Source: Parabacteroides merdae ATCC 43184
GTDB lineage: Bacteria; Bacteroidota; Bacteroidia; Bacteroidales; Tannerellaceae
Length of the DNA stretch: 64,000 bases
NCBI RefSeq assembly: GCF_025151215.1
Contig: NZ_CP102286.1
Span: forward strand, 4,278,001 to 4,342,000
Direction: 5' to 3'
Position numbers and translations under genes: made by a program. Every line of letters begins with the position of its first letter. Position 1 is the stretch's first letter. Shown here in pieces: positions 30,498-31,247 of the stretch. A model generated the notes under the pieces. The model was given only the letters and a program-made list of their open reading frames with translations. It made no database searches and had not been told where the DNA came from.

Positions 30498-30566
30498 GTT
30501 TCCAAAAATCTTTGATTTATATCTGTTAATGTTTCTTCGTAAACAATATGGTTTGCCGTTTTTCAC

Positions 30567-30574
30567 TATCTTTG
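30567..30574 (+). promoter_or_regulatory. -7 box upstream of the structured RNA (distal)
   Basis: A perfect TATCTTTG followed by C. Transcription would start near 30581. No clear -33 element. It may give a longer form of the RNA. Confidence 0.45.
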
Positions 30575-30649
30575 CGATTGACATAGGATTGTCGAAGCTT
30601 TGACTTTTCGGCTGTTCTGTCGATGGATAACGTTAAGCGTTTAAGATAT

Positions 30650-30657
30650 TATCTTTG
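30650..30657 (+). promoter_or_regulatory. -7 box directly before the structured RNA (proximal)
   Basis: A perfect TATCTTTG. The predicted start (about 30664) coincides with the first base of the long rod-like fold. Confidence 0.5.
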
Positions 30658-30663
30658 GAACTG

Positions 30664-30836
30664 AAAATCGCCAACTTTCCAGTCGGACAAAGATAATAGA
30701 CAACTGGACGCTCACGCTTGTTATATATACTTGTGTATATAGAATAAAGCGTGGGCTGTTGTTTATTATTTGTCCGATGGGTGTTTGGCGATACCTCAGT
30801 TTCAAAATAGTAGATTAACAGTTCCCACGCTTTTTA
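30664..30836 (+). ncRNA. Structured RNA, possible 6S-like rod with competing terminator
   Basis: No ORF spans this stretch, but its two halves pair along almost their whole length. ATCGCCAA (30667-30674) pairs with TTGGCGAT (30785-30792); GTCGGACAAA (30682-30691) with TTTGTCCGAT (30769-30778); GACAAC with GTTGTT; CTCACGCTT (30711-30719) with AAGCGTGGG (30747-30755), capped by TATATA..TATATA. This gives a rod of about 130 nt with internal bulges, the general form of 6S RNA. A third element, AACAG-TT-CCCACGCTT plus five T (30817-30835), can instead pair with AAGCGTGGG-CTGTT (30747-30760) and terminate transcription. It may be a free small RNA or a leader of the gene at 30888. Structure is seen in sequence; the 6S identity is a guess. 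Confidence 0.6.
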
Positions 30837-30887
30837 ATTAATATAGATGCCAAACATAGGGGAGCAGGGCGGCACCATAATTTGAGT

Positions 30888-31247
30888 ATGAGCTCAGAAG
30901 AATCGGAAAGAATTGCAATCTGTTGCGTATTATTGGATATTGTGGAAGCTATGGGCACAAGTGCCGACATAAAGGGCTGCCGACATTATCAATCGTTGAG
31001 AGATAAAACGGATATTACCGATTCTGACTTTGAAGGGGCACGCTCCGTTTCGGTATTGTCCAGTTTGGTTACTTTGAAGGGGATGCATTATAATAAAAAG
31101 ATGTTGCTTGCATTGACTGTATGTGATCTTTATTCCGGACACACCCCTGTGTCTCTTAATTTAAGGATTGCATTCGAAACATTGATGAATGCAATCGAAT
31201 GGCCGATATCGTTTTCCGAGATATTGACGATCAGCCGGACGGAATAA
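30888..31247 (+). CDS. Hypothetical protein (possibly TerB-like helical)
   Basis: 119 residues from the ATG at 30888; the frame also opens at a TTG six bases earlier. It starts 52 bases after the structured RNA's terminator. The sequence is predicted helical: 'SERIAICCVLLDIVEAMG', then 'SVSVLSSLVTLKGMHYNKKM', then 'LLALTVCDLYSGHTPVSLN' and 'RIAFETLMNAIEWPIS'. This roughly matches the repeat plan of tellurite-resistance TerB proteins, but the acidic signatures of that family are absent, so the link is weak. Codon use looks like that of neighbouring genes. It is either a small unknown gene or the product controlled by the upstream RNA. Confidence 0.55.
   Translation: MSSEESERIAICCVLLDIVEAMGTSADIKGCRHYQSLRDKTDITDSDFEGARSVSVLSSLVTLKGMHYNKKMLLALTVCDLYSGHTPVSLNLRIAFETLMNAIEWPISFSEILTISRTE

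Follow-up and report, generated by a model that had tools for sequence, protein, structure and literature searches.

A candidate RNA switch in the 5' leader of a Parabacteroides merdae orphan gene and its copies in Bacteroidota

The window, i.e., the whole stretch of 64,000 nucleotides analysed here, holds a non-coding region with a long predicted rod in front of an orphan gene at 30888. The question raised by this locus is whether the region is a free RNA or a part of the message of that gene. The preliminary description left three identities for it, i.e., 6S RNA, another conserved small RNA, or a leader controlling the orphan gene. From the analyses below, the region is one copy of a large and apparently undescribed family of candidate RNA switches, which precede many unrelated genes in Bacteroidota of the gut and elsewhere. 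The leaders of this family probably fold in one of two ways, which would decide if the gene behind is read.

Architecture and covariation of the two folds

Two perfect TATCTTTG boxes had been reported at this locus, and both were confirmed, at 30567-30574 and 30650-30657. The element extends from the promoter at 30567 to the gene start at 30888, longer than first stated. The rod is real with the arms originally given: segment 30640-30840 folded at -80.6 kcal/mol, versus -39.2 ± 4.2 in shuffled sequences (z = -9.9), and 0 of 200 shuffles folded as well. In the inverted-repeat search, AAAGCGTGGG (30746-30755) was 100% complementary to CCCACGCTTT (30824-30833) on the terminator side, and AAGCGTGGGC was 90% complementary to GCTCACGCTT (30710-30719) on the rod side. 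Because the shared strand is complementary to both partners, the two pairings are mutually exclusive, and this part of the preliminary description stands. A third inverted pair, TATTATCTTTG and CAAAGATAATA (30647-30657 with 30688-30698, 100% complementary), had been missed. Through this pairing, the second TATCTTTG box at 30650 becomes a strand of an alternative 5' hairpin, not a second promoter. The parts of the leader are as follows.

30567..30574, + strand: predicted promoter -7 box TATCTTTG; TAnnTTTG in register among copies
30635..30641, + strand: segment a (AAGCGTT), pairs with e in the two-hairpin fold
30648..30657, + strand: segment b1 (ATTATCTTTG), contains the second box and pairs with d1 in the two-hairpin fold
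30657..30664, + strand: segment b2 (GGAACTGA), rod partner of b2'
30667..30674, + strand: segment c (ATCGCCAA), rod partner of c', loop of a small hairpin in the other fold
30682..30697, + strand: segments d0, rod partner of d0', and d1 (30688-30697), partner of b1 in the two-hairpin fold
30706..30719, + strand: segment e (GGACGCTCACGCTT), partner of e' in the rod or of a in the two-hairpin fold
30720..30746, + strand: apical hairpin of the rod, variable, very short or missing in distant copies
30747..30760, + strand: segment e' (AAGCGTGGGCTGTT), the switch strand, partner of e or f, with triple covariation
30763..30804, + strand: 3' arm of the rod with d1', d0' (30769-30778), c' (30785-30792) and b2' (30797-30804)
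30817..30835, + strand: segment f (AACAGTTCCCACGCTT) and T-run (30831-30835), 3' half of the terminator-like hairpin
30848..30874, + strand: small hairpin P4 (TGCC...GGCA), whose loop GGGAGC can pair with GTTCCC of f (30821-30826)
30888..31247, + strand: downstream gene, an orphan of 119 aa

The TATCTTTG box was taken to be a promoter by the Bacteroidetes consensus, and transcription would start near 30580. The terminator hairpin of the window would enclose 56 nt (30761-30816), unlike ordinary intrinsic terminators, and some of this stretch can pair. A possible ORF of 13 codons with its ATG at 30623 was seen by eye across a and b1. A leader peptide was rejected by the same inspection, because the close relatives L008, L011, and L012 do not share this start.

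The compensatory base changes which the preliminary description proposed to look for in related genomes were found for both folds in an alignment of 55 copies. In the rod, 90.3% of cells were paired, versus 34.8-49.1% in slid controls, the covariation score was 0.474 versus 0.211 ± 0.008 in shuffles, and 355 cells were changed on both sides versus 118 ± 11. The number of rod pairs with both-side changes showed no excess, i.e., 23 of 40 versus 21.5 ± 1.7, with 144 of 500 shuffles as high. In the two-hairpin fold, 92.2% of cells were paired (39.4-51.8% when slid). Both-side changes occurred there in 15 of 31 pairs versus 8.8 ± 1.3, and the covariation score was 0.281 versus 0.195 ± 0.006; since the copies are related by descent, none of these comparisons with shuffles is a probability. 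By helix, both-side changes were present in 7 of 8 pairs of b2-b2', 8 of 10 of d0-d0', and 6 of 10 of b1-d1. The pair of a and e at alignment columns 12-94 was G-C in 22 copies, G-U in 15, and A-U in 14 (n = 55), and e' was paired with f in 92.0% of cells.

The stronger point is the triple of e, e', and f. At its first position, 19 of 55 copies read A-U-A and 20 read G-C-G; at the second, G-C-G was found in 32 and A-U-A in nine. The remaining rows are mixed; seven with A-G-A (first position) and seven with G-G-G (second) look by eye like rows displaced by one base. Some bases of the 5' arm, the 3' arm, and the terminator arm thus change in threes, so one strand must pair both ways. Judged from the aligned sequences, both folds are under selection, and the triple covariation carries this conclusion more than the shuffle statistics do.

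Segments c and c', which are complementary (helix 2 of the rod), each sit in the loop of their own small stem. Both stems changed in a compensatory manner, i.e., T-A in 33 and C-G in 15 copies for c', and G-C in 21 and A-T in 14 for c (n = 55). It is therefore plausible that a loop-loop contact of c and c' starts the strand exchange. When the alignment was examined for a conserved ligand-binding core like that of a riboswitch, 27 scattered columns were at least 85% conserved and unpaired in both drawn folds, e.g., A20, G23-T25, T195-A197, G210-G211, and C226-C227; G210-G211 and C226-C227 are paired within the small hairpin of c'.

Promoter, T-run and genes behind the leader

TAnnTTTG occupied identical aligned columns in 68 of 71 copies. 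It was present 35-110 nt upstream of the element in 101 of 122 distinct copies, versus 6.6% of shuffled upstream stretches. The 3' end was T-rich in 120 of the 122, versus 96 of 366 control windows inside the element. Of 184 copies with enough sequence, 159 were followed within 160 nt by the start of a same-strand ORF of at least 60 codons, counted from the 3' end, and 25 were without a detected downstream ORF; the divergent control gave 31 of 187, and some of these loci are one genome counted twice. Between terminator and start codon, 64 of 65 copies had no TAnnTTTG, the exception being a tandem unit. Within 100 nt past the element the box occurred in 11 of 122 copies, four of them gene-distal tandem units. 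The element is thus likely a 5' leader, with a likely promoter at 30567, and not a free RNA. The gene found behind the element in relatives supports the third identity proposed for the locus, i.e., a leader of the orphan gene at 30888.

The downstream proteins (161, with 132 distinct sequences) fell into 68 unrelated clusters. The 68 cluster representatives hit 36 Pfam families. A shared function was rejected, because among the matches listed each of the 25 families was found in one member only and none recurred across representatives. The gene content, being without common function, gives no hint of the signal. By a crude test, an export-like N-terminal signal was seen in 34 of 68 representatives versus 79 of 317 control ORFs from the same loci. 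Single-protein checks recognized polysaccharide export, ECF-type sigma (two copies of the own genome), HU-type DNA-binding, and TonB plug proteins, and further dynamin, exonuclease, MBOAT, and UbiA. Behind the own-genome copies lie the window orphan and genes for, among others, two sigma factors and a SusC-type protein; an HU-type protein follows a tandem pair. Behind six named Bacteroides loci, two of which are B. fragilis strains, the proteins form a single polysaccharide-export cluster. The window's orphan had no Pfam match; its cluster comprises 16 of the 161 proteins, and the leader is kept in front at these 16 loci.

Some leaders stand in tandem, each with its own promoter box (L024, L027, L021, L032, and L099, the last at G003:C158 2092-3318). 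Tandem pairs of four genomes carry a distinct type, with e' like GCGTGAGCTGTTGCTC, in the gene-distal place. In L099, which has four units, d0-d0' looks broken by eye in two of the distal units and kept in the gene-proximal one. Other copies are interrupted. At G015:C1 about 4572790-4578044 (L014 and L041), an element of approximately 5 kb splits a copy inside c', with a 383-aa phage-integrase-family protein beside one junction and TTGGCGAT at both. A similar break at the same place was found in L031 (G030).

Distribution of the family and comparison with known RNAs

The 201-base query (30640-30840) was found at three places in the own genome by sequence comparison, and in 30 of 59 genomes of relatives, all but three within the genus. 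Exact-pattern search gave 83 named stretches, mostly of Parabacteroides, but also of Bacteroides, Dysgonomonas, Barnesiella, Odoribacter, and more. From the 55-copy alignment, which had been made from sequence only, a covariance model of the rod was then built. It matched 35 of the 38 Parabacteroides genomes at E up to 0.001, with 417 matches over the 38, some of them on the complement of a rod. One relative (G019) had 47 matches, one being the complement of another, i.e., 46 places. In the own genome, E up to 0.01 gave 13 matches; three were complements of rods already counted, so that 10 copies stand there. Among genomes of the order, 109 of 295 matched, from 76 of 183 genera, and among those of a phylum sample 17 of 395 did so at E up to 1e-6. 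The order and phylum searches had stricter filters, few candidates scored, and rough E-values, and their totals include the own genome and its genus-mates.

A copy was also present in two plasmid records, i.e., NZ_OY725790.1 154307-154520 (Parabacteroides distasonis) and OY726002.1 40543-40780 (Phocaeicola massiliensis). Another (L093) lies in the metagenome-assembled genome of Candidatus Merdenecus merdavium, presumably one of the Firmicutes by its name. It stands before an exonuclease-like gene which clusters with those of Dysgonomonas, and a binning error or a transfer is possible.

The Rfam search proposed in the preliminary description named no family: at the gathering threshold none covered the element in the window or in 20 other loci, and at E up to 5 the matches in 30500-30900 were only far below gathering. 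No title or abstract beginning in the literature searched describes the leader family, and an unnamed entry in a catalogue is possible. The main texts of PMC11109978 and PMC8632094 contain zero mentions of Bacteroid-, Parabacteroides, Flavobacteri-, Porphyromonas, or Prevotella. Structured 5' regions without family names, 64 in number, are reported for a flavobacterium (PMC9723704), and long 5' UTRs for B. thetaiotaomicron (PMC7366714).

Attenuating leaders and riboswitches have a mutually exclusive antiterminator and terminator. With these the leader has in common a promoter, a structured leader, an alternative terminator with a T-run, a gene behind, and some tandem copies. It differs in that nearly all strands are swapped between one rod and two hairpins, in that neither a conserved leader peptide (by eye) nor an Rfam aptamer class was found, and in that the genes behind are unrelated. 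The leader has the sequence features of a transcription attenuator, and its regulated termination is putative.

The Flavo-1 RNA (RF01705, 76 positions) is also a multicopy structured element of the phylum. It was rejected as the identity of the leader, because none was found in the own genome, and its places in G341 and G331, among the matches listed, did not overlap with leader copies. In single genomes of the class (G350, G354, G341, G386), Flavo-1 had from 25 to at least 64 matches, on both strands. DUF805 RNA (RF03081) is a 5' leader element as well, but a separate motif of 68 nt. It was found in one of the 20 loci, downstream of the copy, and was rejected as a separate element. At this locus (L185:1391-1459, - strand) it lies 41 nt downstream of the copy and before the gene, so that two leader motifs stand in series. 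The candidates of Fremin and Bhatt 2021 (PMC8040213), e.g., HMP2_4205, are palindromic, belong to Bacteroidetes, and have predicted terminators; the likeness is one of description.

Proposed switch and its alternatives

The reading preferred here is a bistable transcription attenuator, in which the rod would permit read-through and the two-hairpin fold would terminate. We consider it probable from the sequence evidence. The three-element attenuator logic of the preliminary description was borne out in so far as both folds covary, the promoter is in register, and the T-run is present. Transcription would start from TATCTTTG at 30567, and as the 5' part emerges, the hairpin of a-e and b1-d1 would form first. 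Then e' and the later segments would displace this hairpin stepwise, and the pairings e-e', d0-d0', c-c', and b2-b2' would in turn build up one long rod. When e' is held in the rod, the terminator cannot form, and the polymerase would continue into the gene. If a ligand, a protein, another RNA, or a favourable transcription speed kept the 5' hairpin in place, e' would be free to pair with f before the T-run, and transcription would stop. Once read-through is done, the P4 loop may take f. What the sequence shows is the two folds, with their exclusivity and covariation, the promoter box, the T-run, and the gene order. Termination at the T-run, the fold that is ON, the displacement pathway in vivo, and the effector are what we infer.

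In minimum-energy folds of the growing chain, a-e was kept to 30755 and b1-d1 to 30765, and then the rod zipped; at 30835, f was held by a. The unconstrained fold was better than the terminator-forced fold by a mean of 13.0 kcal/mol (0.0-30.5, 55 copies), a difference which is non-negative by construction. By this advantage read-through is likely the default in the modelled folds, termination would need kinetic or external help, and holding the 5' hairpin would likely cause it.

Many copies have a small hairpin between the T-run and the start codon, with a loop like GGGAAC, whose partner is GTTCCC of f. Where f reads GTTTCC, the loop is often GGAAAC (partly by eye), and in a copy of the own genome GTCCTC meets GAGGAC. 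Pairing of f with the spacer of its own copy scored 14.05 on average, versus 12.90 ± 0.20 with the spacers redealt (maximum of 300, 13.47; 122 copies), in a test where at least 13 of the 122 f segments were visibly misplaced. Because this contact lies past the T-run, it cannot decide termination. We read it as a means of keeping f occupied once the polymerase has passed, or as a second layer of control that acts post-transcriptionally.

The latter leads to the alternative which survives best, i.e., that the same leader acts after transcription, with translation or mRNA stability governed by its folds and by the contact of f with P4. The contact coevolves although it lies beyond the T-run, and the loop in the window is 22 nt upstream of the start codon. 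On the other hand, P4 is not evident in some copies (L051, L061, and L064 have no GGGAAC-like loop), and the pairing of e' with f and the T-rich end are kept nearly throughout. Post-transcriptional control is possible, though on the unlikely side; it overlaps with attenuation, and both could act side by side.

Next, the element could be a trans-acting small RNA family of approximately 250 nt, with the T-run as an ordinary 3' end and the gene as a mere neighbour. Each unit does have its own promoter box and T-run, and tandem units approximately 330 nt apart keep the boxes (four TAACTTTG in L099). Paralogous small RNAs are known in Bacteroides: FopS of Bacteroides thetaiotaomicron, as described in PMC11697453, is trans-acting and consists of a single-stranded 5' stretch and a terminator hairpin. 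FopS resembles the leader as a multicopy Bacteroidales RNA family with a terminator, but by that description it is set apart, being without a rod and without a fixed downstream gene. It was rejected as an identity, since the leader's rod does not agree with a 5' single-stranded seed and terminator only. The same-strand start codons close behind the element and the missing promoter box after the T-run argue against a free RNA, as does the coevolving contact of f with a hairpin beyond the T-run, which needs a read-through transcript. This alternative is rather improbable. Of the earlier suggestion of another conserved small RNA, the conservation held, whereas the evidence points to action in cis.

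A DNA element, i.e., an integration site or mobile palindrome, would explain the inverted repeats, the many copies, and the tyrosine-recombinase element of approximately 5 kb found inserted into c' of one copy, where both junctions carry TTGGCGAT. It would leave unexplained the promoter box and T-run in fixed order, and the leader staying before the same orphan gene across the 16-locus cluster. The pairs include many G-U, and the sense strand outfolds its complement in 121 of 122 copies, which indicates RNA pairing and not DNA pairing. Against mobility, there were 0 matches in viral contigs (exact pattern) and 0 in phages (blastn, E up to 1e-5), besides the two plasmid records. This explanation is very improbable.

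The 6S RNA of the group, the first identity proposed, was abandoned as scarcely credible: the leader shares with 6S RNA and 6S-Flavo (RF01685) the long bulged rod and about the right length, but it has no central bubble (internal loops of at most 5 nt per side), stands in 10 copies in the own genome and at 46 places in one relative before unrelated genes, and gave no 6S match at gathering in the window and the 20 other loci, nor at E up to 5 in 30500-30900. For 6S-Flavo, zero matches were obtained in the own genome, with the positive control silent too.

Beyond the attenuator itself, a wider reading is offered tentatively, with somewhat less than an even chance. The leaders may be a phylum-wide switch class which reads one shared signal by the exchange of rod and two hairpins, nucleated by the c and c' loops. 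They would jointly tune numerous gene products, unrelated to each other and often exported or accessory, and would likely be among the most numerous regulatory RNAs of Bacteroidota. The shared signal may be a second messenger, a global RNA-binding protein, or the transcription speed itself.

If this reading holds, Bacteroidota, a dominant phylum in the human gut, has an abundant cis-acting RNA switch family outside Rfam 15. SusC-type transporters and ECF sigma factors would then share one regulatory layer with exported proteins, capsule-export genes, dynamin-like GTPases, and an HU-type protein. By its triple covariation, the leader would also lend itself readily to tests of how RNA strands exchange while they are transcribed.
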